From assembly GCA_963556145.1 (NCBI GenBank), contig OY744469.1:5428767-5492766 (forward strand): a stretch of 64,000 nt of DNA, in the 5' to 3' direction. This stretch comes from Hygrocybe punicea. Its lineage: Eukaryota; Basidiomycota; Agaricomycetes; Agaricales; Hygrophoraceae. The position numbers and the translations under genes are program-made. The notes under the pieces were generated by a model. It did not search any database, was not told the origin of the DNA, and was given only the letters and a program-made list of their open reading frames with translations. This document shows, one piece after another, positions 15,343-58,890 of the stretch (position 1 is its first letter; every line of letters begins with the position of its first letter).

Positions 15343-17474
15343 CTATGCAGTACGCTTTCGGAACAAAACGTGGGCATTCCTATTCGGAATGCAATGCGAC
15401 CCGTACCATTCGTTAGGCGGTCGCACACCCGCTTCCCGTAATTTGACGTCATACGAGATGACGACATGGGCTAGCATCACCTTGAGTTCGTTGGCCGCCA
15501 AGTGCCTGCCAGGGCTGTGGAAGCGCCGAAGCACCAAAAAGGCGTTTTGTGAATCATTTTGTGTTTTTGGAGGATGGTGATCTTAACAACAACGACGTAC
15601 CAGGCGTGCTTTCCGAGACCCCATGTGAGAAAAGACTGACTCGCGGTGACCAATTGGGCATTTGCACCATGCACGTTCGCGTTCATGAAGCGAAACGGGT
15701 CAAATACATCTGGGCGGCCGTAGATGTCCTCATCGTGATGCATAGCGTATAGCGGAGCGCAAAGCGTGGTCCTGGCAGGGATAACAGTACCGTCCGAGAA
15801 TGTGAAGTCTTTGAGGGATTTGCGCAATAGAACAACTGCAAGAAAAAGAAAAGAAAAAAAAAAGTAAGTCGGGGGAAATATTTGAATTCGGTGATGGGAA
15901 ATGTACCGCTCCCGGTCCCATTCAATCTTTGCGACTCCTTCAAGAAGCTGTCGATTTTGGGCATCCGATCCACGGCCGCCTTTGTCCAGCCATGCTCCTC
16001 CACGACGGACTCAACTTCCTCCCGCAATGACTGGGCATATTCCGGGCTGGCGGCTAGGTGGTACAATGCATGCGTAAAGGACTGATGGTGAAAAGTATTG
16101 TGAGCAGGATATAATAAATGAAAGTGAGTCTGGAAGTTTCGTACCATGGAGGTGGTATGGATGGCGGCAAAATTTACCGACAGAAGGCGCATGGCCATGT
16201 CGTGTAGTGTTCGCTGGTTGCCCGCAGTTGCATCCAGCATCCACATCAAAAAGTTATTCTGACAAATGCGTAACGCACACATCAGCGACGGAAGTGAGCA
16301 AAGCCCGCAGAATTTTTTTTTTACCGGTTTATTAGGCCAATCTTTACCGTACTCTGCCTCTTTCCGCAGGTACTCTTCAAAAATGGGGGCAAGATGCTTT
16401 GCCGTTCGCTTGATATACATAGGGAGCTTGGTAATATATGGGCCAACAAACCTATTGACAGGCGCAGATTAAACATGTGTTCTTGGCTGAACAAGATATG
16501 AAAATAGAAACGTACGGCCGTAAAAATTTAGGAAAGACGTCGAGAATAATTGCAGTTTTCAATACATCGATCGTGAATTGCGAATTTATAGCTAGATAAT
16601 CGGGATCCCGACCTATGGGATTCATATTAATTTAAATGGCCAGTCGAATCGTTGTTAGAAATCGTCTCACATAATGGAAGGCCTACGAAAAGCCTGTTGC
16701 TCGTGCGACATATAATCTCCAAGACCGCATTAGCCGCAGGTATAGCTTTCCAATCTGTTCCAATGATAATAAACGACGGTGATCAGACATTGGAAAGGAA
16801 ATAAAACAAAACAAAGATAACGCACCACAGCTGTCGAGAGAAAGAACACTGTCGAATGATTCCTTGACCTCGTCAAGAATGTCGGGGAAAAATTCTCCCA
16901 GATTTCGGGTGAGAGTGGTTCGAACAATGGAGACATGAAAAGGGTTGGCAAAGGACTCCTCGCCTAATGTGTATTTCGTATGTCCAATCTGCGGAAATCA
17001 AGAAATGAACAACTGCATGAAACAATATCTCTCAATTGAAGTCACCTCGTCAAGAGCTTCGAATAGGTTGAGATGATCGTTGCTAGCTTTACGAATATCT
17101 TCTACAGACTGGCGACCACAACAAAAGACCATCCAGCGATCTTTGAGTGCTACTTTGAAGAAGCCATTTTGGTACTGGCGGAGTCGTGAGCAATGATTAA
17201 CGTGACCAACGTTAATAAAATGCACCTTTTTACAACCTTCTATTGTCACTCTTCGGCTTTGAAGTAGATACCTTATTGCTCCTAGGTAGGATATCAGTGG
17301 TCCTGATGGACCAACGGTAGGGATGTGACCCAGCTGCAAATAAATAACACTCTCAGAAATATCGCGAGACAAGGATGTTGAGTGAAAACGCACATTTGGG
17401 GCCTTCGCCCAGACTCTAACAAGCAAGTAGAGGAGAAGGAAACCTGCAATTTCATAAACTAAAAGATGGGACAT
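15343..17474 (-). CDS. cytochrome P450 monooxygenase
   Basis: A multi-exon gene of roughly 11 exons and about 500 residues. The N-terminal anchor is LLVYEIAGFLLLYLLVRVW, followed by a proline-rich hinge (HIPTVGPSGPLISYLG). The I helix has FAAIHTTS, in the place of A/G-G-x-D/E-T-T/S. The K helix ExxR is KESQRLNG, the PERF-like region is FDPFRF, and the haem loop is FLTWGLGKHAC-PGR. The haem-ligand Cys codon is split by an intron: TG at the end of one exon (donor GTACGT), C at the start of the next (acceptor TTCCACAG), near 15600-15520. I see no frame break. The C-terminus resembles CYP68/gibberellin-type fungal P450s, but the CYP family is not assigned and the substrate is unknown. Confidence 0.85.
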
Positions 17475-43597: not shown

Positions 43598-44800
43598 TTA
43601 GCGGGGAGGTGGCATTGCATAGCGGAGGAAGGGTTCCAGGATTGGCGTTCCCTGCATATATGGGGCCATGACTACTGCGTGTTGGCGTAGGTATGTTAGG
43701 AATGCGCCGGAGGTCCAGCGACCAATGGTTTTTACCACCTCGAAGGGAACGCCTCGTAGTAGGAGTTCAAGTGTGGCTCCAATACGGATCCCATGTCCCT
43801 GAAAGGGAGGTATTTTCAGTGCTTTGCTGATATCCTTCAGCCGTGATATGAAAGCTGATCGCGTGAGAGGTCGGAGTCCTTGAGGGTGGCGCCATGCGAA
43901 TAAAGGATCAGCTGGGGATGGGTTGTTGATGGCGAAGTGGTTATTGATGGCGGCCTCTGGATCCGATGGGCCTGGTTGTGTCGACCAGTATATATCCTCA
44001 CCTTCTCGTGAAGTCTTGGTGACTGGGATGTGGAAGACTGATACTTTGAGATTGTTGCGATCTTTCCGCCACGTCATGTCAGAGTGTTTGACATGTAGGT
44101 TAGGATTGAAGGCTTTTAAAGTGGGAACGGTAAGTTCACCAAGCCGAGATACGGAATAAAAGGCGGTCGTAAGGCAAGCATAGAAGGCGGCATCGAAAGG
44201 GAGCGTTAGGTCCAGTTTATCCTTGGCCATTGCTAGGATTTCGGTGGTGACGGGTTCTCTCTTCGCACGAATGGATGTGGGGGGAGTGAGGGAAATGGCG
44301 CCATCGAGGGCCGCTTTTATCTCTGGGTGATTGGCGGACCATGGCTGGCCATGGAGAATGTGCCATGCACGGACAGCGAAGACATAATTAGCCAGCGTCT
44401 TTCCGGAGTAAGCTCCGGCGCAGTTGGCGATGAAGGCGAGGACTAGGACAGGCCCGGCTGGACATCGTTGAGGTTCAGGGATGCTGCGGAGATCACAGAA
44501 CCGGTGAAATGCGAGAAGTCCTGCACCGTATCCAGCCCGAGTGCCTTGAGCCCAGGATACACCGATGACCTCTAGGATTCGGTCTAGGTCAGCGTCGGTG
44601 ATGTGGAGGGTGTGTCCGTTAGCATCATGTGCCGTACGTGTTCGAGCTGGTACCCATAGCCGCAGACGGTCGCGGGCAAGGCAGTGGGGACGAAGCGGTG
44701 AGTCAAGAGGGGCCAATCCGAGTCGATATGGTTGTGGCCTAGAAGGAACTGGGGCCGGGGGGGGATTGAAGGGTGGATCAACCAGACCATTGGCTTCGGA
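43598..44800 (-). CDS. tyrosine recombinase of DIRS-like element C
   Basis: The frame carries TRAGYGAGLLAFHRFCDLRS (N-terminal SAM-like domain), SVSRLGELTVP (catalytic Arg), VFHIPVTKTSREGEDIYWS, the block GHGIRIGATLELLLRGVPFE (H-x-x-R), and VVKTIGRWTSGAFLTYLRQH (Trp and Tyr nucleophile). All catalytic residues are present. The open frame extends far upstream (to 47083) over the RT region in another frame, so the true start is unclear; it may be made by frameshift or from an overlapping ORF after RNase H ends at 44778. It would integrate the circular DNA intermediate of the element. Confidence 0.85.
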   Translation of the reverse strand, partial: SEANGLVDPPFNPPPAPVPSRPQPYRLGLAPLDSPLRPHCLARDRLRLWVPARTRTAHDANGHTLHITDADLDRILEVIGVSWAQGTRAGYGAGLLAFHRFCDLRSIPEPQRCPAGPVLVLAFIANCAGAYSGKTLANYVFAVRAWHILHGQPWSANHPEIKAALDGAISLTPPTSIRAKREPVTTEILAMAKDKLDLTLPFDAAFYACLTTAFYSVSRLGELTVPTLKAFNPNLHVKHSDMTWRKDRNNLKVSVFHIPVTKTSREGEDIYWSTQPGPSDPEAAINNHFAINNPSPADPLFAWRHPQGLRPLTRSAFISRLKDISKALKIPPFQGHGIRIGATLELLLRGVPFEVVKTIGRWTSGAFLTYLRQHAVVMAPYMQGTPILEPFLRYAMPPPR

Positions 44801-47117
44801 GGGCTCGTATATCAGTCTCAAAGTCGGTGGGCTGTTTGTGTGGGGGACCAGGATTCCTGAGAGAATTTGCAATGAGTTTTGCGGTTGCTTTGGGGTATCG
44901 GCCCTCTCGGAGCAGCTTGAGCTCAGTGTCTGAATATGGTAGGGTCGCATCAATGATGAACCGGTCGAGACCAGCGGGTATTTCGACGGGGGGTAAGAGG
45001 AGGTGGTACGGAGGATATATGCCCCGGGAGGGGCCATCGGCTGGGTTGGATTTGCTGGGGATGTAGGTTGCATGGATCGAGATAATGGAGTCACAAGACT
45101 CGATGAAGTTGTGGATGCGTTTAAAGATGTCGTTGATGGCTGCATTCCTGCTGCGGCCATTTGGCCAGCCTTCAACGACTCCCATGTTGTCCCCGAATAA
45201 TTCAAAATGCTGGCCAGTTGTTGCAGACCGGGTGACTGATTGAATGAGGAGTTCGAATCCCAGGGCCTCTGCCCAGCCAATGTCGCGTTTACCATCAAGG
45301 GTCTTCCATCCTGGAATGAGGCACCAAGCGCGCCAGCGGCCAGCAACGACGATTCCGATGCCAATGCCCGAACTGGCATCTGAGAAGGCGTCGAGGTTTG
45401 TGAGGTGGACAGGGCTTGGGATTGTCCGGCCAAGGAAGGGTTGGGCCAGCTTGGCACGCCACCATTGCAGGTCTCCACGGATCGACTGGTCAGCATGGCG
45501 TGGCATGAGAGGACGGTCACCATAGATGCCAAGCATGTTCTCCAGGCCGGTGAGGTAGGCGCGGCCTGGAGGGACCACCAGGGATGCGTGAAGGAGCTTT
45601 CCGTAGATTTTTTGTACATCGCCGAGGATGTGGGTAGGCGAGCATTCCCATTCATGGATTGACGTGAGGTATTTGGCCTTCTTCTTTGGTGGAAGGGAGA
45701 CCATGAGTGTTTCCAGATTCCAATCCAGGCCAATGAATGTTGTGGTTGAAGCGAAGGGCAGGTCCTTGGATTTCTCCCAGGGGATACCCAGCTGGTCGGA
45801 TAGACGGTCAATGTCGTCGAAGTTGTAGGCGAAGCGTTGGTCCTCAGAGGAGTGGGGTGAGTGCGATGATAAGTCGAGGCAAGGGGAAGAGCAATCTTCG
45901 TCGAATTCTTCCAGCGTGCCATCGGGGAAAACTCTGCCACCAAACCAGAGGCGCCCACCATCGTGATGTCGGCCACGGGGGGCAATGTCGGCGTGCCAGT
46001 CTCTGCGGCGCGTGTTGTATTCGTGGAGGCGTTCTCGAAGGATCCGGAAGAAGATGTGGTCGTCGACCCATTTGGAGAGAGGTGCCATCCCATGGCAGCG
46101 GAATAGCTCGGTGCCTGCATCGCTGACGGAGCCATACACTCCGGCTGATGGTGCAACCCCGAAGCAGGTGGCGGTGTTGATGCAGAATTCGTCGGCAGCG
46201 AGTCAGACGACGGCACCTGGCCATTGGGAGGGGTGCAGGGGGATCGTCCGGTATGCCTCTGCCACGTCTCTCGTGGCTGCCTGAGAGCCGGGGGGAAGGC
46301 GTGAGATGAGTAAGGAGACGATTGAGAAAGTCCCCCAGGTGCTGGGGAAGCGGTCCGAGTCGATCTGGGAGTTGATGGAGGGACTCGGGAATTTTGGTGA
46401 GGTCTTATGAGGGAATGAATAGTTTTGTACATTGCGGAAGTGATTCGGTCGGCCTGGTTTGGGTATGATGCCAAAGGGGGCCGTCTGGAAGGGGCCGATG
46501 AGCGTCTCGAGAGTTGACTGAGAAAAGGGTCCCAGGTATCGGCCTTTGGACAGCTCTTTGGATATGATTTTTTGGAATTCGGAGCTATGTTCAATGATGG
46601 AGTCTTTGTTGGGTGGGGCTTGGGTGCGTGAAATGGTGGGTATCTCAAGATTGAAACCGTATCGCATACTTTGAGGGAGATGATCATAGCGAGGCCAGAT
46701 GCTATTTGAACGGAGTAGTGCTTCCCAAGCATCCGGTTTATAGGGAGTGAGGGCTTGATGCCTTCTGCGCTCGAGGACAGCCTTGTGCGCCGTGAGTGGT
46801 ATGACCACATCCGGAGCAGAGGTGACGATTGTCGTGGCGGGTGCTGGTGCAGCCGGCCACGCGTTGGAAGTCGACACAGATGGGGCGGCCATCGCGGAGT
46901 ACGAGGGACTTGTTGACGCGCTTTGCGAGCGCGAGGTGGAGCCCATCCCAGGTATGCGTTGCAGCGCATTCCACAATTCTGTGGGGGTTGCGACCCAGGC
47001 ATACGGCGCAGGCAGAGTAGCCCCCACTGCCTGCGCCTGCCCGAAAATCCGACTTCTTTTCCGGACATCCTCGGCTGTCGCAAGGCCGGGGTGGAGACCC
47101 AGACCTCCTGCGAGCAT
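44778..47117 (-). pseudogene. Cys-rich finger, reverse transcriptase and RNase H of element C, one nonsense change
   Basis: CAVCLGRNPHRIVECAATHT and RHLCSGCGHTTHGAQGCPRA (46990-46790, neighbouring frame) form the finger. The RT follows: LETLIGPFQTAPFGIIPKPG, RDVAEAYRTIPLHPSQWPGA, then a TGA at 46203-46205, after which the same frame continues LAADEFCINTATCFGVAPSA and SKWVDDHIFFRI with the catalytic VDD. RNase H follows (SDASSGIGIGIVVAGRWRAW, FGDNMGVVEGW), ending at 44778. The stop fits a CGA to TGA change in a VVRLAADEF context. Otherwise the region looks complete. Confidence 0.8.
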
Positions 47118-48622: not shown

Positions 48623-51600
48623 ATGCTCCGCGGCTCGAGCTTCCTAGAAAGGCCACCGACAGTGCGTGCATCAGCAAATCGGCAATTTGTCTGACAGGTC
48701 TTGGGTGGTCTGGGCCCGACCAGTCCAGACCATAAAACCTTCCGGACCGTGATGTTAGATTCTAATTTCTTCTGACCACTTCCAGATGGCATCGTCTGGA
48801 CCAGACCACTTCCAGATGGCGTCGTCTGGACCAGGCCACTTCCAGACCATCTCAAGACCATGTAGGTAGCATTCCGAATGACAGAAAAAATATTTATTTT
48901 GAGCTCGCAAAACAAATTCTGTACTTCAACCAACCCCAAAAGAGACCTGCCCTCACAATACTGCGACTCGCAATCCAATAGTGATTACTTTGATCCTTGA
49001 CCTAGGGGCGACGTCGGACATCAGCTGTTGTCAGGCAAGAAATTTGAAAAATACCTTTACTCCATCTCGGAGATCATCGCACGTTCATCATCCACATCAA
49101 CCATCATTGCATCCATGTTGGCGAGCTTAACATTTCCAATCATACGAGCACCATTGAGTATCCTTCCCCAAGTTATTGGACCAATCTTCGCCACAGAGAT
49201 GCCGTAGGCTTTCGTTTGCTTGTACCAGTTGCTCTCCGAGAACATATCAGCCGTCTTAGTACCTGGTATTTTTGTCCCGGTTACCCAGGGTGTCAAAGCA
49301 CGCTCAGCCTAAATACTTGTGCATTAAGCAGCAAACAAAACCACAGATGGAGTAATTACCGCTGCCATGGCCAATGACAGTGCACCGCAGGGTTTAGCAT
49401 CGATCAAAAATTCTGTTGGTGCCCCTACAGTGTCGGCAAGATGTGTGGAGAAGATTTTGAGGAGGAGCGGTGACAGATAAGCATCTGATTTAATCTGTGG
49501 GTCGCCTATCAGTGAGACGTACACGTGAATGGAATTTTCATACCTTTGGATCACCCTTCGCAAACATGAATGGTAGGCCTGGTCCGAGAGCATGTGTAGC
49601 ATATTTTGCACGCCACTGCGTGTCTTCGACACCTTTAGATGCAACATCTTGCTCCTCGAAATATGCAGCAACTGCGTTAACGCCTTTAACAGCGAATTTG
49701 CCCCTCCAGTCATAAAAACGTTGCATGGCCTACAAATTGTTAGCATTCGTGGCATGGCAACTTACATAGAAAAATCAGAGTTGATAACGCACCACAAAAT
49801 GGATGACGTCGTTTGGCTGGATCTTACCATGCGTACTGGCTGGATACACTGCATTGAAGCAGACTTGTAATTCTATTGCAATACTTGGGTTGTCAGTATC
49901 CCAGGGGTCATTGAGTGTGCCAAGATAGTTGCGCCAGAGCGGAACAAATTTGTCGGCCCAATGTGCTTTGATGTCGGCTGGAAGATGATTTGCAGAGAAT
50001 CGTGCGCGGCCCAGGGTGGATCAGACAAGACTGTCTTCTGCCTCGACCTTGATTGTAGGTGCATTCGGAGTAATTTTGGTGATGGACTGAGGTTGTGAAA
50101 TGGTATAATCAGAGCCACGAATCAGTGAAATGGCGTACCTGAATGATTTTAGATGCCTTTAGAAGGGGTTGTGCCGCAGCCTCTTTGCTCTCATCTTCAT
50201 CTGAAAGACCACCATACAGATCGGCAAATCTGGTGTCGGTTTGAATTGTGGGTTTGGTCTGCGCCATAGTCACGACTCCTTGGCCGTTGGAGAGTACTTT
50301 TTTCCACAGGGTCGGCGCCTCCACATCTGTTTTGAATCTAGGGAGAAGTCCTCCTGGATGCGCTGGCTTCAGTTGCTTCGCAGCACTAGTACTAGAAGAT
50401 TTAAAGATCACCGTCACATGGAATACTACAAAACATGAAGATGATGGGGAAACAACTTTTCAAGTTCGTTATCGACCTTCCTTTTGTGGACATGGCGAAC
50501 TCCGGTTTGGGCCGTGGTCACACGTTCGGCCTCAATTGCCAAACGGTCAACACCTCGTGTCACCTTCTTACCTTTCTCTCTCACGACGACCTCAACGTTC
50601 GGAGCAGTTGGTGCAGGGGGATTCGTGGGGTTGACCCTCGCAATGCCACGCTTGGCAGTTGGCTGGTAATCCAAAGTTTCTGCCGGTAGACATGATTAAT
50701 TGCAGTCTGCAACCACCCTTATAACGTACCATCATTTGATGCCACAGCGTCGTCAACCTGGTCGCTTTCCTCTTCTTCCTCTGGCCTGAAGCTTTTCGGC
50801 TTTGGCTTGTAGACTAAAAGTTGTGACTCTTCTTGGCTATCAAGCTCGAAACTGTATGTGCTGCCTTCAGTATCGCTATTGTTGAGAGGCATATTGATCT
50901 CTGACGATAATCCTCCCCTTTTGCCAGATCCTGCATGGTCCGCGTCTGCATTGGCGGCCGGCCCCATACGTTTCGCAAGATGGACTGTGATTTTCCCAGC
51001 CGGCGGCTGAGCTGCCTCGGCTTTGTTTTGCACTTCGGTGAGTAACATATTATCTTCAAGGTTAGCAATTCTTTTCATGCTGGCCTTCCTGGATGCGACA
51101 GCGTCCGCTGCCTTTTGAGCTTTCTTGGCGAGAGCGGCAGCTTTGTCTGCAGCAACCTGTGCCGAAGTTCTCCGTGGTTTGACTACCTTCACATCCAGCA
51201 GCCCTGGATGGAGATTTGCCTTGGTACGACGTGGACGGTTGGTAAGTGGCTCCACATTTTCATCTTTATCAGCACAAAACACGTCATTAATTTTTTTCCT
51301 CAGTCTGTTGGCGACCTTTGGGTGACCTACCTTCGGCTGAAGGCTCGAAATATTTTTTCCCTCGTCCTTTGGTTCCGTCAAGTTGATAGACATCCTGAGT
51401 AGTTGTAGTCATTGAAGCGATGAAAGAAATTGCTAGCTGGAATGGTGGGTTTTGTTTTGGTTTTTTTTCACCGCTTTTGACCCTCAAATTTCAAGATGCC
51501 AAACAATTGCAACTTCAACATTTCTGACTTCCTTCTCGGTCACCACTGTGACACCACGCTTCTCGAGCGAACGATGCGAAACTTTTCTTGCAACCTAGGG

Positions 51601-54600
51601 CTTTGCAAGGGCAAACATAAAACATTCAAAAATCGTTCTGGTTACACCCAGCACAAGAATTCTGCTCATCCCCCGTCGACCCGGTCTCATATACCTGTTC
51701 ATCCGAGCCGCATACCGGATAATTTCGTTGAACCTGATATTACTTTCAATTATGATACTGGGGATGATAATATGGCGAGTGGTCGTGAGCAAGGTGCTCA
51801 AATTAAACGGCATCTGATCCTCAATGGTGTGTTCCATGGCTTCGTGTATTAAAAAATAATTAAGTAATATTCAGGTGTTCCATGCGATGAAAATGGAAGA
51901 TACCTCGATCATGGTACACCTCCCACCACAGTTGAACAACGTCCGACCGATTTTTCACCGTATAAATCTCGGTCCGAGTTTGAGATCGCCGATTTTCTTT
52001 ATCGGCGAAACCAGATGCCTGGATCACAAATTGACGATCTTATGGAATTGTGGGCTGCTGAAAGTGGTGCAGCACCCTTTGAAAGTCACCAAGGTCTCTA
52101 TGATATCATTGACTCCACGACTCTGGGTGACGCACCATGGAATTCATTTTCTGTCTCGTACTCTGGTGACCTCCCTAACGGTGAAATTCCTACGTGGATG
52201 ACTTCCGAATATGAAGTGTGGCATCGCAACCCACATACTGTGATACGCAACCAACTGGCCAACCCAGACTTCAAGGATGACATTGACTACGCACCTCTTC
52301 AAGAATTCCAGGAAAATGGCAAACGGAGGTGGACCGATCTTATGACAGGCAACTGGGCTTGGAACCAGGCAGTATGTTGCCTCCCCATTCAACCAATCAT
52401 TGAGCACTAAAATCAATGGTTAGAATACAATTGCGGAAGAATCCGACGACACCCATGGTGGGATGTTTGTTCCGGTCATCTTGGGTAGCGATAAGACTAC
52501 AGTTTCAGTTGGCACTGGGAACAACGAGTTCTATCCATTATACGCTTCTGTTGGAAATGTCCATAACAATGTCCGTCGCTCTCATCGTAATGCCGTTGCC
52601 ATTATTGGATTTCTTGCTATCCCCAAAAGTTGGTGATCTATTCTCAGTATGGTACTGTTGCTGAATTAAGTATTTCATAGCTGACAGGAAACACGCAGAC
52701 GATCCAGATTTCCGGAAGTTCCGGCGTCAACTTTTTCACTCGTCCCTGGCGGCAATAATTGAACCATTTCGTGCGGGGATGACCACCCCGGAAATCACAC
52801 TCTGTCCTGATGGACATTTTCGACATGCGATATATGGGATAGGGCCATATATAGCTGATTATCCGGAGCAGGTGCTCCTATCATGTGTTGTTCAGGGCTG
52901 GTGTCCTCGGTATTTAGGTTCCTCATTAACAGTAAATTTCAGTACTTATCTTATCTCAAGGTGCACAGCAAAGCCCGAGAATCTGGATGGCCACACTGGT
53001 CCTCGATCCCAAGAGCACTCAGAGGCTCTCCTTGATGAGTTTAATCTAAAAATGTTGTGGGAGGATTACGGCATAGTTGGCGATGTTATAGTATGTTTTT
53101 GAGTATTCGAAGCTTCATATTTCCTTACTTATCATCATCAGCCGTTCACTTCAACCTTCCCACGTGCCGACATACATGAGCTCCTGACATCAGATCTTTT
53201 ACACCAATTAATAAAGGGCACATTTAAGGATCACCTCGTCACCTGGGTTGAACAATACCTACACAATGTGCATGGCAAGAGTGGTGCAGCGGCCATTTTG
53301 GCTGACATTGACCGACGGTGAGTATTTCACGATACTCTGTTGCATATATTCTAATATCGGCTCTGATTCAGGATTGCTGTTGTTCCATCATTCCCTGGCC
53401 TACGGCGCTTCCCAGAAGGTCGCGGCTTCAAGCAGTGGACTGGAGATGATTCGAAAGCGCTTATGAAGGTATGAAATCCCTGTTCTGTTGTCATAACTAC
53501 TTAACGCTTGTTCTTAGGTCTACCTACCTGCAATTGCCGGCCATGTACCTCCTCAAATGGTCCACGCTTTGGCGGCATTTCTGGACTTTTGCTACCTTGC
53601 ACGACGTTCCGTGCATACCGAATCTTCACTAGATGCTATGGATGATGCGCTCGCCCGATTCCACCGTGATCGGGTGATCTTTGAGCATGAGGGTGTTTGT
53701 GCCGAAAATATTTCCCTCCCACGGCAGCACTCATTGGTCCATTTCCGAAGAGTCATTGAGCTTTTTGGCTCACTAAATGGACTCTGTTCTTCAATAACAG
53801 AATGCAGGCACTGCTCAGCCGTCAAAAAACCATGGCGGCGCTCAAATCACTACAAGGCGCTTGGTCAAATGTTATTGACTAATCAACGGCTTGACAAATT
53901 GGCAGCATCTCGTGTTGACTTTGTGGCGCGAGGGATGCTCACTCAACCGTACCTTCCTGATCACCCAGTGGTCGAGCCTATCAATCCTGTGGATATTCAA
54001 CCCAATGAGCTAGATGCAGGTCCTGTTGATGGTCCACGAATTCTTGCTGTAGTAAGGTTAGCAGTACGTGCAGGTATATAGGTTCCATTGGTTTTTATGG
54101 TGTCATGACTAATAATGATTATTCTCCATAGCTGCTAAGTCCCAGTTTCCACGCCAGCTGCATGCCCTTGCAGAGCAACTCTCAGTTCCAGAGCTCCCTG
54201 AGCTCATGCGCCGTTTTCTCTATGACCAATTGCGACCTAACGCAATATTATCTGGGTCTGATGTTCACCTTGAACAATGCCCTCCTCTCCGTGGTCGTGT
54301 TTATGCTGTCCCTTCAGCTGTTGCCACTTTCTATGCACCCAGCGACCCATCTGGAATTGGCGGCATGTACTGTGAAAGAATCCGAGCCACACCATGCTGG
54401 CATGGGGGTCCACCGCGAAACGATTGTGTTTTTATCTCAAAGGAAGTAGAGGATGTAGGAATGCGGGGTTTGCACGTCGCACGTGTGCAATTCTTCTTCA
54501 GGTTCACATATGAAGGCAAACAATATCCATGCGCTTTAATCCAGTGGTTTTCGCCAGTCGGCGGTGCCCCATGTGAAGATACCGGGATGTGGATTGTCGA

Positions 54601-57600
54601 GCCTTGCCTTGATCCCAATGGCCAACCTGAGCAAGCTGTCATTCACGTAGATGCCATTGTTCGGGGAGCACACCTCATTCCTGTCTATGGTGAAGAGCTA
54701 CTCCCTCCCCATATCAACTTTGCGAACTCATTGGGATCATTCCGAGCATATTATGTTAATAAATATGCTGATCACCATGCAAATGAGATAGCATTTTGAT
54801 TCGACGTCTGCCTGCACCAGGATCTGGCCCTGGCACGCCAACTGCAACACCAACCCAGCCAGCTTACTGGCCACGACGACCCCCACTAGTGGTAGCGTGC
54901 GAAATTCCTTGCCCACACCCCATCTCTGCCCGCACCCAAATCTAGCACCGTCAGTGGCAATGCTAGTGCAGGCCCTCCCACCAGCTGCAACAGCTCCCAC
55001 TAACATGTTCAATTCTCCACCGGCACACCTATCTCTACCCACACCCGAATCTGGCACCCCGGCGCAACTCTCACCGGCTCCAACAACCCTGACTGGAACA
55101 TTCGGTTCTCAACCGACAAACCCATCTCCACCTGTGCCGAAATCGGGCACCGTCTCGCTGATTACAACGTCAGCACAGGTCCGTTTGCCAGCCGCAATGC
55201 CATCTTCCTGCTCTGGCACATCCGATACCATACCAACATTCCCTACATCTGAGACCGGCACGATCCCGCCAATTGCAATGACGGCCCTTTCGCCGTCGGC
55301 TACTCCTGGTCCATCTAGATCATCGGCCCTACAATGGCCTATCCTGACAGGCTACCGCCTCCTCGTCATCTTCGCTACGTTTGGGTATGGCACTGCCAAG
55401 GCCATCCTTGCCTCACACGGCAAGACACTTACGCCGCAGACCATGGAATGGGTGATTGGGATCATCGTTACCCTCGTGTGAGCAGGCCTTTTACCTTTTA
55501 CCTTTTCTAACTCATAAGCTCGCTCTTTCAGTTTATTATACTTGGGTTGGTTTGAAAACCTCCATAATTCCGGGGCATTTGGTCATTTTTTCTTCCAGAA
55601 AGACTACGTGCAGGACATTGGAAAGATCATTAGACATAGCCTCAATATGAGTACTATGGTTAATTAGTATCTACTAGTAGCATAGTACACAGTATCTTAG
55701 CCGTCAGTTATATATGGTCTGACGTGTCTGGAGGGTCTGGGATTGTTGGAAAATAACTTCAGAGTGAAATTGTTCTGGGCCAGACCTCTCCAGACCGGCC
55801 CAGACGAAAAAGTCTCTCAGGACCTTTTGTCGATTTGCTGATGTGGTCCAATTGATTCGCTACCAGTGTGAGGTAGTTCTGCTAATCATCTCCTGGATTG
55901 GCCACGCACACACACAGCCAGTGCGTTATCTCATTGATCCGCTGTAAGGTAGTCCGGCTGATTGTCGCTGATTGTCCACCCACATAGGTAGTATGTTGTC
56001 CCATTGATCCGCTGTGGGGTGGCCCCGCTGACCGTCTTTGGATGGCTCACTCATACAGTTAGTGCGTGATCCCATTGATCCGCTGTGAGGTAGCTCCGCT
56101 GATTATCTCCTTGACTCCACCCGCACAGAGTGTGCGCTATCCTATTGACCTACTGTGAGGTAATCCCTCTAACTGTCTCCCTGATTCCTCGCCCTCGCAG
56201 AGAGTACGTCAGCCCACTGATCCGCTACGAAGTATCCCCGCTGACCGCTCCTTGAATATCCACCCGCACAGGATGTGCGTTACCCATTCATCTTCTGTGA
56301 TGTCCCCGTTTACTGTTTCTTTGATTACCCACCCGTACAGGATGTGTGTTATTGACTCGCTGTGATGTTGTCCCACTGATCATCTCCTTGATTGCCCACC
56401 CACACAGGCAGTATGTTATTAGATCTGCTGTGGGGTTCCTCCGCTGAAAGTTTCCTTGATTTCCCACACATACAGATGGTACGTTATCCCATTGGCTTGC
56501 TGACGGTCTCCTTAATTGCTCACCCACACAGCGAGTTCGTGATTCTATTGATCCGCTGTAAAGGCCCACTTACAGTCTCCTTGATTGCCTACTCACACAG
56601 GAAGTGCGTCATTCTATTAACTCGCTGTGAGATAGTCCCGTTGACCATCTTCTTCTACACACACAGTGGGTGCGTTATACATTTATTCTCTGTGAGATAG
56701 CACTGTTGACTCTTTGATTGCCCACCAACCACACAGGAAGTGCGTGGTCTCATTAATGCACTATGAAGTTGTCCCGCTGACTGTCCCCTTGATTGACAGC
56801 GCGTGCGTTAACCCATTGACCCGCTGTGAAGTAGCTCCTCTAACTGTCTCTTTGATTCCCCGCCCACACAGAGAGTACGTTATACCATTGATGTACTGAA
56901 CTAGCCTCGCTGACTGCTTTAACTGTCATCCACATAGCTAGTGCATTATCCTATTTATCTGTGGGCTGGAATCGCTGACCGTTTGATTGCCTACCCATAC
57001 AGAAAGTGCATCTTTCAATTGATCCGCTGCTAGGTAGCCTAGCAGAAACTCTCTCGTTGGCCTGCCTTCACAGGGAATGTGTTAATTCGCTGACCTAGTT
57101 GAACTCTGCTCCTTTATTCATAGGATGTGAGTGGGTTATCATAGCGTGTATTAATTTATTGAGACTGTGCCTTAGCTGAAACCCGTTCAAGAAGCTTTCT
57201 ATGCATCCAACGACCGTAGCACCGGTACAAGTGCTTGTTTACCCAAGACCCAGGGCCTTGTACTCCAAATAATCCGCCAGTGGATAAAATCTGAACCTGG
57301 CTCACCGTTGTTCTGGCTATGTGGCTTCGCTGGTTCGGGAAAATCCACTATCGCTTATACTATAGCTCAGGAACAGAGTTCCGGTGCCTCATTCTTCTTC
57401 TCGAGAGCCCGGCTCACCCTCCGCGAAAGTCGATTAGTATTCCAAACCATTGCTTCTCAGCTCAGAATTGGTCACCCAATTCTTCGGGAGCAGATTGCCA
57501 GGGCCTTGCACGATCAATCCGTTCTCACTGCAGACAATGAAACACAGCTGCGAAAGTTCATTCTCAACCCCATTTCGCGGACCCAAGCCTATCTTCCAGA

Positions 57601-58890
57601 ACGTCTGGTCATCGTCGTCGATGCCCTTGATGAGTGTGGTGACGATATCATTGCGAATGTCATCAATGCCCTTGCAACGACCCTTGAAAAATATGATACA
57701 TCTCTTCGGATTCAATTGCGCTTCCTCGTTACGAGCCGACCTGAACCACATCTCCTCGAGTTCTTCGAAGAGCAACATATCCCATCCTTTAATCTGTCTG
57801 ACGTTAATCCCGTTGACAGGGAAAAGGACATTCGCATTTTCCTCCAAGACGAGTTACAAAAGCTTACTTCTGCGCCGAAGAAGGAGGATATCCGGCTTCT
57901 TGCCAAGATATCTGATGGGATTTTTGTTGCAGCACGTATAGTTGTCGATTTTGTTGCTTTCGGGGAATCACCAAAGTCTCAGCTTCAAAAACTGCACAAT
58001 GTTTGTGATATTTCAGGACTTGATGTCGTATATCAGCTAGTTCTGGATACTGCGGCCCGGGAGGAGCTTGGGTGGGACATCCTTCAGCCCATCGTTGGCA
58101 CCCTTATTCTTTCATTCACTCCACTCTCGAGACAGACATTAGCAGACCTTCTGCACATTACATTCAGGCGTCTTGTCCGTTTACTATACGCCCTTCGTGC
58201 AGTTATCCACGTACGAGATGGGGACGAGATCTACCCTATTCATGCTTCGCTTCGGGACTTTTTAACAGATCGAAATCATTGCACCGATCCCCGCATCTTT
58301 ATTCATCCCCTTCAGCATCATACTATGCTTGCTGGCGCTTGTTTCGATAGCATGGAAGTTCTGCTTCAGAAGCCCGATCTTCGTGACATCTGTCGGGATG
58401 GGAAGGCGTTACTTCCTGATGATTTGACCTATGCATGTCAATATTGGGCGCAACACCTGGCGGAATCAAATTTTGACCAGCCTTTACTCGATCTCCTCCG
58501 TGAATTTGCCTCTAAACGTCTTCTGTATTGGATAGAGGGATTGAGTCTTACCGATAATTTAGATCTGGGTCTCAGCGGCTTGGATGCTGTAATCAAAGTT
58601 TTGGTGGTATGTTCTTGCTTGCATGATTGTAAAGGCAAGCTAAATTTCTATCTTCCAGCCATCTAACAGCGTACCAGATCGGGTTACTGCACTGATATCT
58701 GATGCGCATTGGTTCTTGGGGCATTTCAGAGACCTGCTTTCAATAAGCGCGATGCACACCTATACTGCTGCACTACCACTGACACCTGCAACCACAAGAC
58801 TACATCAACAGTATGCATTGAAGTTCGAGGGCATGACGTTACACTCGACGTTGACGTGGGGTGCACCATTTCGAACACATAGAACCAGGT
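48623..58890 (+). CDS. NACHT (NLR-like) gene with a single-codon micro-exon array
   Basis: Exon 1 (48623-48661) reads MLRGSSFLERPPT and ends in phase 0 at donor GTGCGT. Nineteen three-base units follow (see 55846-57175), then the NACHT exon 57176-58606: LKPVQEAFYASNDRSTGTSA, P-loop LFWLCGFAGSGKSTIAYTIA, Walker B ERLVIVVDALDECGD, LRFLVTSRPEP (sensor-like), PIHASLRDFLTD. After an intron (GTATGT...TTCCAG), exon 58659-58890 reads PSNSVPDRVTALISDAHWFL and TYTAALPLTPATTRLHQQY. This last piece usually precedes WD40 repeats, which are absent here, so the 3' end is truncated or unresolved. NACHT proteins are signalling NTPases, in fungi linked to non-self recognition. A Plavaka transposon lies in intron 1. 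A G-to-A change in one donor (57077) may damage splicing. Confidence 0.65.
49057..51393 (-). CDS. companion protein of Plavaka, unknown function (possible nonsense change)
   Basis: Starts MSINLTEPKDEGKNISSLQP. It contains an Ala/Lys-rich coiled-coil-like stretch RRTSAQVAADKAAALAKKAQ and ASMKRIANLEDNMLLTEVQN, acidic linkers, and a conserved-looking C-terminal half: ADIKAHWADKFVPLWRNYLG, NAVYPASTHGKIQPNDVIHF, WRAKYATHALGPGLPFMFAK and ERALTPWVTGTKIPGTKTAD. Roughly seven exons read through. The exon near 50030 has an in-frame TGA (EDSLV-stop-STLGRARFSA) that would need an unrecognised intron, otherwise the copy is broken. I recall similar divergent partners beside Plavaka transposases in other mushrooms, but no domain is named. 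It may be a DNA-binding or assembly partner; that is inference. Confidence 0.6.
51394..51495. promoter_or_regulatory. 102-bp divergent promoter region of the Plavaka gene pair
   Basis: It separates the start codons of the companion gene (51393 minus) and the transposase (51496 plus, or 51571 if the second Met is used). Such close divergence suggests shared regulation. No individual site is assigned. Confidence 0.5.
51496..54799 (+). CDS. Plavaka transposase
   Basis: A C2H2-like finger comes first (CNLGLCKGKHKTFKNRSGYT then QHKNSAH). After an intron follow ADFLYRRNQMPGSQIDDLME, DAPWNSFSVSYSGDLPNGEI, HRNPHTVIRNQLANPDFKDD and DLMTGNWAWNQA. The core has FVPVILGSDKTTVSVGTGNN, NVHNNVRRSHRNAVAIIGFL, MTTPEITLCPDGHFRHAIYG, HELLTSDLLHQLIKGTFKDH, LRRFPEGRGFKQWTGDDSKA and LPRQHSLVHFRRVIELFGSL with NGLCSSITEC. 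The C-terminal part ends YYVNKYADHHANEIAF. This is the full Plavaka order, with the usual Asp-containing GSDKT and DLLHQ blocks and the Glu in SSITE. About eight short introns are readable and I see no stop. It probably encodes a functional transposase. Confidence 0.9.
54897..55667 (+). CDS. small membrane protein gene inside the Plavaka element
   Basis: Exons 54897-55477 and 55518-55667 join (GTGAGC...TTTCAG), giving about 243 residues. The first 150 are Pro/Ser/Thr-rich and low in complexity. Then come two hydrophobic segments, TGYRLLVIFATFGYGTAKAI and WVIGIIVTLVLLYLGWFENL, separated by LASHGKTLTPQTME. The tail FFFQKDYVQDIGKIIRHSL is soluble-looking. The exact acceptor is judged by frame. 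It lies 97 bp past the transposase stop and within the element ends. I have seen similar two-span proteins near such transposases but know no function. The start could be further upstream. Confidence 0.5.
55846..57175 (+). repeat. tandem array of about 20 intron-like units separated by single codons
   Basis: Each unit (49-72 bp) starts with a 5' splice site (GTGCGT, GTATGT, GTACGT, GTGTGT, GTGCAT), has CTGAC/CTAAC/CTGAT about 25-35 bp before its end, and ends ACAG, GCAG or ATAG. Three bases lie between each acceptor and the next donor, starting at 55918, 55988, 56059, 56129, 56201, 56272, 56341, 56408, 56476, 56532, 56601, 56667, 56737, 56800, 56872, 56938, 57003, 57074 and 57124. They read CCA GTA TTA AGT AGA GAT, then GAT GCA ATG CGA GAA TGG, then GAA CGC AGA CTA AAA GGA, then GAT. 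The peptide would be PVLSRDDAMREWERRLKGD. Unit consensus: GTGCGTTATCCCATTGATCC, then GCTGTGAGGTAGTCC, GCTGACTGTCTCCTTGATTG, CCCACCCACACAG. The donor after GGA (57077) is ATGTGT. Confidence 0.85.

Follow-up and report, generated by a model that had tools for sequence, protein, structure and literature searches.

A predicted row of single-codon exons in an NLR-type gene of Hygrocybe punicea and similar arrays in other genes of the genome

Rows of codon-sized exons are known from a truffle. In Tuber melanosporum, the nank (NACHT-ANK) genes are reported to contain tens of codon-sized (3-bp) microexons that are alternatively spliced (Iotti et al. 2012, Fungal Biol 116:261-275, as cited in PMC3689799, PMC4986451, and PMC10197012). 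The proposed role of these microexons, according to the same citing papers, is receptor diversification (PMC3689799, PMC4986451, PMC10197012). Cytochrome P450 genes of the basidiomycete Phanerochaete chrysosporium contain microexons of 2 to 10 residues, the shortest of 6 bp, and introns of 45 to 55 bp (PMC1184071). Isolated 3-bp microexons are present in Drosophila homothorax (PMC7392893) and human RPS24 (PMC12686416). They show that splicing can include an exon of only 3 nt, and long rows are not described in the available portions of the two papers. Among the matches listed from the open-licence PMC literature, no other described a row of codon-sized exons, and none described such a row in a basidiomycete.

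We analyzed a 64,000-nt stretch of the Hygrocybe punicea genome (the window) and searched other loci of the genome (92 Mb in 42 contigs). By RPB2 similarity the genome is probably that of an Agaricales mushroom. One RPB2 exon is 95% identical to Marasmius sp. AFHP31 and Agrocybe pediades and 94% to Mycena chlorophos, and no named non-basidiomycete among the 120 matches listed exceeds 82%; the best matches listed reach 96 to 97%. The window contains an array of 19 triplets, most likely short spliceosomal introns separated by predicted one-codon exons. Arrays of 34, 37, and 25 triplets were found on contigs C3, C6, and C36, and a stub of three triplets on contig C8. They resemble the nank genes, as described in the citing papers, in having rows of 3-nt exons (here predicted, of 19, 34, 37, and 25 triplets) and in lying in NACHT genes (the window and C6 by Pfam NACHT matches above cut-off, C36 by identity to the C6 gene, and C8 by NPHP3_N; not C3). 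They differ in several ways. The truffle family has ankyrin repeats, whereas a Pfam scan of the window, C6, and C8 exons gave no ankyrin match. The truffle is an ascomycete; the arrays here are in the Agaricales (Basidiomycota). Alternative splicing of the microexons is cited for the truffle, whereas here it is a possibility. Unlike the nank genes as cited, the H. punicea arrays are found both before and after NACHT, one is in a gene in which no NACHT was found, and their codons diverge between near-identical introns. The P. chrysosporium P450 genes share very short exons and short introns in a basidiomycete, but rows of 3-bp exons are not described in the available portion of that paper (PMC1184071). 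Codon-sized microexon arrays in fungal NACHT genes are not a first, given the truffle precedent, and the view of the earlier note that a row of such exons would be new does not stand. New here are another phylum, several genes, and codons that vary between near-identical introns. The presence of the design in both Agaricales and truffles suggests multiple origins or widespread annotation misses.

The window array contains 19 triplets at 55918 to 57126, each preceded by an AG acceptor and, with one exception, followed by a GT donor. The 18 inter-triplet introns are 47 to 69 nt long (median, 66 nt). This bears out the earlier description of about 20 tandem introns with exactly three bases between them. 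The boundaries had been given as 19 in a row of the form ACAG-NNN-GTGCGT or close variants of it. A GT donor directly follows 18 of the 19 triplets; the exception, at 57074 to 57076, is followed by ATGTGT. The triplets are preceded by CAG (n = 16) or TAG (n = 3). The array had been placed at 55846 to 57175; its first intron in fact begins at 48662 and has a transposon inserted in it. The features are as follows.

48623..48661, +, proposed first coding exon (ATG exon), MLRGSSFLERPPT, ending in phase 0 and followed by GTGCGT (sequence, frame)
48662..55917, +, first array intron, enlarged by the transposon (joined flanks align to array intron 3)
48669..55843, no strand, Plavaka-type transposon in the first array intron (inverted repeat, Pfam)
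55918..55920, +, triplet 1, CCA (P) (this and the other triplets by pattern match and frame, except triplet 18)
55988..55990, +, triplet 2, GTA (V)
56059..56061, +, triplet 3, TTA (L)
56129..56131, +, triplet 4, AGT (S)
56201..56203, +, triplet 5, AGA (R)
56272..56274, +, triplet 6, GAT (D)
56341..56343, +, triplet 7, GAT (D)
56408..56410, +, triplet 8, GCA (A)
56476..56478, +, triplet 9, ATG (M)
56532..56534, +, triplet 10, CGA (R)
56601..56603, +, triplet 11, GAA (E)
56667..56669, +, triplet 12, TGG (W)
56737..56739, +, triplet 13, GAA (E)
56800..56802, +, triplet 14, CGC (R)
56872..56874, +, triplet 15, AGA (R)
56938..56940, +, triplet 16, CTA (L)
57003..57005, +, triplet 17, AAA (K)
57074..57076, +, triplet 18, GGA (G), with the non-canonical donor ATGTGT (picked by eye)
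57124..57126, +, triplet 19, GAT (D)
57127..57175, +, last array intron (read from sequence)
57176..58606, +, NACHT-domain exon, beginning LKPVQEAFY in phase 0 (Pfam; end from comparison with the related protein P0002)

Joined in phase 0, the triplets encode 19 residues, PVLSRDDAMREWERRLKGD. Phases 1 and 2 contain stops, and phase 0 alone is open. It is continuous from the ATG exon through the triplets to the NACHT exon. The NACHT exon has a frame open as far as 58663 (496 residues) and matches the Pfam families NPHP3_N (1.8e-23) and NACHT (1.4e-6). The next exon begins at 58659, by comparison with P0002. Removal of all array introns would join 19 codons between the short ATG exon and the NACHT exon. 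The count excludes shifted overlapping matches and a CGT at 57145, 18 nt past the last triplet. Elsewhere in the window, a cytochrome P450 fragment is present at 15686 to 16468 on the minus strand (Pfam, 1.6e-9). A long open frame at 44781 to 46202, also on the minus strand, has a weak, below-cut-off match to a viral DNA polymerase C-terminal family and is perhaps part of a retroelement.

Most of the 7.3 kb that separate the ATG exon from triplet 1 belong to the transposon. It is of the Plavaka type and 7.2 kb long, with imperfect inverted repeats at its termini (16 of 17 bases matching) and two Pfam Plavaka matches (5.3e-32 and 1.5e-34). When its flanks were joined, within 3 bp of the element ends, they aligned to array intron 3 with a score of 35. 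Other array introns had a mean best score of 30, and shuffles reached at most 7. Since the joined flanks align like another array intron, the ATG exon at 48623 to 48661 is probably the natural upstream neighbor of the array.

The row is far longer than chance would give. A strict AG-NNN-GT rule with intron spacing yielded a chain of 15 in the window, and the longest chain in 60 dinucleotide shuffles was 3. For exon sizes of 0 to 12 nt and a minimum chain of 5, at the loci examined at that stage, arrays appeared at 3 nt only, except for a 7-nt sub-repeat within the C6 unit. In 28 NACHT loci besides the window and C6, scanned for sizes of 0 to 30 nt on both strands, the sole chain of at least 3 was of 3-nt exons on the sense strand, in C8. 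A looser donor rule at nine further loci gave chains of 4 at exon sizes of 12, 14, and 23 in two of the nine. Size-0 exons (AG directly followed by GT, as in recursive splicing) formed no chains under the strict scan. The scan took in 41 NACHT loci, fewer than half of the 96 NACHT matches in the genome; 30 were read with 1.5-kb flanks and 11 in their downstream part. Arrays of at least three triplets were present in 4 of the 41 loci (window, C6, C8, and C36). Another NACHT match locus (L063, position 1226) has a weak three-step 3-nt chain downstream (ACT, ATC, ACA); its donors are poor, and it was not counted.

The arrays outside the window are as follows.

C3:1044711-1046964, array of 34 triplets, KEEDLSEFIFTLDLEFFDLLEDERLRILDDIEDS (pattern, frame)
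C3:724947-728196, minus strand, a second, partial copy of the C3 array, split into two pieces, 95 to 96% identical (DNA search)
C6:6654344-6656855, array of 37 triplets, NFVDWTPSPGLPYYGRSRYSYRPGLYQLVASDITQFF, downstream of the NACHT exon (pattern, frame)
C36:3836601-3838355, minus strand, array of 25 triplets, LDKDWNIYLRIHHHYLRRVHLIQNR (pattern, frame)
Contig C8, stub of three triplets, E-Q-L (pattern scan)

Some triplets were chosen by eye and not by pattern (one in the window, four in C3, two in C6, and one in C36). Dropped pattern matches were shifted overlaps, those 18 to 29 nt after another match (57145 in the window, 1046287 and 1046916 in C3, and two in C36), and the last match in C6, AAG.

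The same design appears to be used in all five genes. The C6 gene has a Pfam NACHT match above cut-off. The C36 gene, examined as a C6 paralog, is 37% identical to it. The C8 gene is another C6 paralog, with NPHP3_N above and NACHT below cut-off. A third paralog, on C1, carries stops, and no array was found in the 3.5 kb read there. The array comes before the NACHT exon in the window and after it in C6, C36, and C8. In these last three, the triplets apparently start at the same junction (the exon end, judged by eye). Consecutive GAT-TGG codons are common to C6 and C36. In the C3 gene, two exons scanned gave no Pfam match and no NACHT was found; a search with the predicted C3 protein returned no relatives. 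A search with its upstream exons found the first copy alone and not the partial second copy. Phase 0 agrees with the end of the upstream exon in four arrays (window, C3, C6, and C36) and, in the window, also with the start of the downstream NACHT exon. The joined C3 triplets are open in phase 1 too. All 37 C6 and 25 C36 triplets are flanked by AG and GT. Used as DNA queries, the window, C6, and C36 arrays each retrieved only themselves, and C3 retrieved itself and its partial copy. The arrays therefore show no detectable relationship in unit sequence and have the 3-nt geometry in common; the search skips very common words, so it does not prove that copies are absent.

The window copy may be decaying, given its ATGTGT donor and the 7.2-kb transposon in intron 1. 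That donor means either that the codon of triplet 18 may be skipped or that the copy may be in decay. A version in which the design is real and the window copy is now a pseudogene is compatible with single-codon exons, and we consider it possible but rather doubtful. It fits the existence of a partial second C3 copy and the stops in the C1 paralog of C6. It sits poorly with the open 496-residue NACHT frame in the window. The C6 and C36 arrays also speak against it; they look young, since AG and GT are intact at all triplets and their introns are near-identical.

Several observations suggest that the triplets are codons. None of the 19 window triplets is a stop, as the earlier note had stated, and there are no stops among all 118 triplets of the five arrays (window, C3, C6, C36, and C8). 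With columns shuffled, the chance of zero stops was 0.28 for the window, 0.32 for C3, 0.012 for C6, 0.45 for C36, and 0.33 for C8. The joint outcome occurred in 0 of 20,000 shuffle rounds, which overstates the case because copied units are not independent. In the homogeneous block of C6, all five triplets that start with TA end in T, and all 16 others end in A. With third bases dealt randomly this pattern would arise 1 time in 20,349, again for copied units that are not independent.

The introns look like introns. CTRAY branch words, counted in the window, C3, and C6 arrays (8 to 50 nt from the intron 3' end in the window), are present in 12 of 18, 20 of 33, and 22 of 36 introns, respectively. 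The shuffle maxima were 8 (mean, 3.3), 11, and 13. A good branch word 25 to 35 bp upstream had been claimed for every intron; the enrichment is real, but only 12 of the 18 window introns have one, at 8 to 50 nt. Retention of an intron would break the frame or add a stop in 105 of 111 array introns. This weighs heavily against the array being read through unspliced as coding sequence. Some frames are open for up to 124 residues, but each sense frame contains 20 to 62 stops, and this reading is contradicted by the sequence and has next to no chance of being right. The best-supported reading remains single-codon exons.

The partial copy of C3 allowed 24 of its 34 triplets to be compared. There were no changes in 72 triplet sites and 49 in 1,327 intron-body sites (3.7%). 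Splice sites were no more conserved than intron bodies (3 of 72 acceptor and 5 of 144 donor sites changed). The comparison is only suggestive, as it would arise by chance about 7% of the time. The base composition of the triplets is unusual. Of the 115 triplets in the four long arrays, 98 have A or T as their third base and 13 have G. Exons usually end in G at donors, and third positions of three NACHT exons of this genome are 47 to 55% A or T. Coding demand alone does not explain these A/T-rich, G-poor ends. Hydrophobic-moment and helix periodicity tests of the array peptides were not significant (lowest P, 0.11).

The earlier note held that the triplets vary freely and that the splice signals and intron bodies are conserved. 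This is sharply so in C6. In the window, triplet diversity by position is 0.75, 0.75, and 0.54; the triplets rank with some other columns as the most variable, and the contrast is weak. C6 contains 18 units of exactly 71 bp (68-bp introns), with a per-site diversity of 0.60 in triplets and 0.061 in introns. In C36, nine homogeneous units have a triplet diversity of 0.50 against 0.088 for introns, or 0.47 against 0.153 with a tenth unit added. In C6, all three AGA and one of three GGA triplets precede a GTCAGT donor; the other 71-bp units have GTGAGT.

A non-coding minisatellite, in which units with splice-like words were amplified by chance and the array is removed as one large intron or is extragenic, would account for some of this. 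In C6 and C36 the blocks consist of 71-bp tandem repeats that are near-perfect, TRF identifies a stretch of the window array as 2.8 copies of a 71-bp repeat, and the splicing of the triplets is predicted from sequence. We consider it unlikely. Variation is concentrated in the triplets of C6 and C36, which is not minisatellite-like (0.60 against 0.061 in C6; weak in the window). The triplets lack stops, and phase 0 fits the flanking exons. Arrays of unrelated unit sequence have the same 3-nt geometry, and the strict rule yields such arrays at no other exon size. One-codon exons, with predicted splicing, are thus preferred. The claim that an NLR-like gene builds a peptide codon by codon is partly supported, by phase 0, the branch words, the lack of stops, and the further arrays of like geometry in related genes.

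Six pairs of C6 units have at most one intron difference in 68 bp, and their triplets differ in all six (0.72 per triplet site against 0.007 per intron site). C6 units that share a triplet are not clearly more alike in their introns (permutation P, 0.14). Near-identical introns around different codons are hard to derive from ordinary point mutation in duplicated units. The options are intron copying, intron conversion with codons kept by selection, and very strong codon selection. One version has an intron repeatedly inserted between codons of an existing stretch, or intron bodies homogenized with codons kept, as opposed to duplication of a codon plus its intron followed by mutation. It is compatible with single-codon exons, and we give it a real but minority share of the probability. 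The six C6 pairs and the same-triplet units favor it. Against it, the sole C36 pair with at most one intron difference shares the triplet CAT, so plain unit duplication also occurs, and the block GGA-CTA occurs more than once in C6. The size scans revealed no exons of 6 or 9 nt, and no contiguous peptide ancestor was found. Introner-type proliferation produces many near-identical introns. Here, unlike introners, the copies are confined to one array; DNA searches with four arrays found none elsewhere except the C3 partial copy. This divergence of codons between similar introns is the most novel aspect of the arrays.

Relatives of the window gene were examined for the leader before NACHT. At least 30 proteins among the 120 matches listed are 65 to 71% identical to the window NACHT exon. 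Among the best 37 of the matches listed, six were comparable across the intron that follows this exon. Four of the six have 30 to 32 residues at that intron, as if it were read through; P0002 and P0034 have 13 residues there and, since the intron is absent, probably derive from spliced RNA. In P0002, a leader of 19 residues immediately precedes the NACHT exon. P0001, P0005, P0009, and P0030 have other residues than this leader before the NACHT exon, and their genes may therefore have an intron at this position. Homology of the window codons to the P0002 leader was not significant (local P, 0.59 and 0.63; anchored P, 0.66 and 0.11). A contiguous (intronless) ancestor of the array peptide was not found in these proteins.

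Single-codon exons would have consequences for the protein. Skipping, gain, or loss of any unit would add or remove one residue and keep the frame, since every predicted exon has a length of 3 nt and lies in phase 0. The array units probably provide skippable, in-frame variation in NLR-type proteins. Gain, loss, or exchange of a unit had been proposed to add, drop, or swap one residue; this holds in part, but C6 codons differ between units with near-identical introns. The array may diversify a recognition or linker segment through evolutionary codon turnover, and alternative splicing perhaps adds isoform diversity, as cited for the truffle. We tentatively suggest, as a less than even possibility, that introns and not codon-intron units were copied or homogenized, so that near-identical introns were placed around single codons in these NLR genes. 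The result would be a peptide of replaceable, skippable codons and codon-level diversification of fungal immune receptors. Near-identical introns around different codons offer a direct handle on intron origin. Exons of 3 nt probe how short an exon can be and still be recognized, and an array of 37 would do so 37 times per transcript. If spliced, each unit would be an in-frame skippable residue, which would give a simple means of NLR diversification by unit turnover and possibly by alternative splicing.
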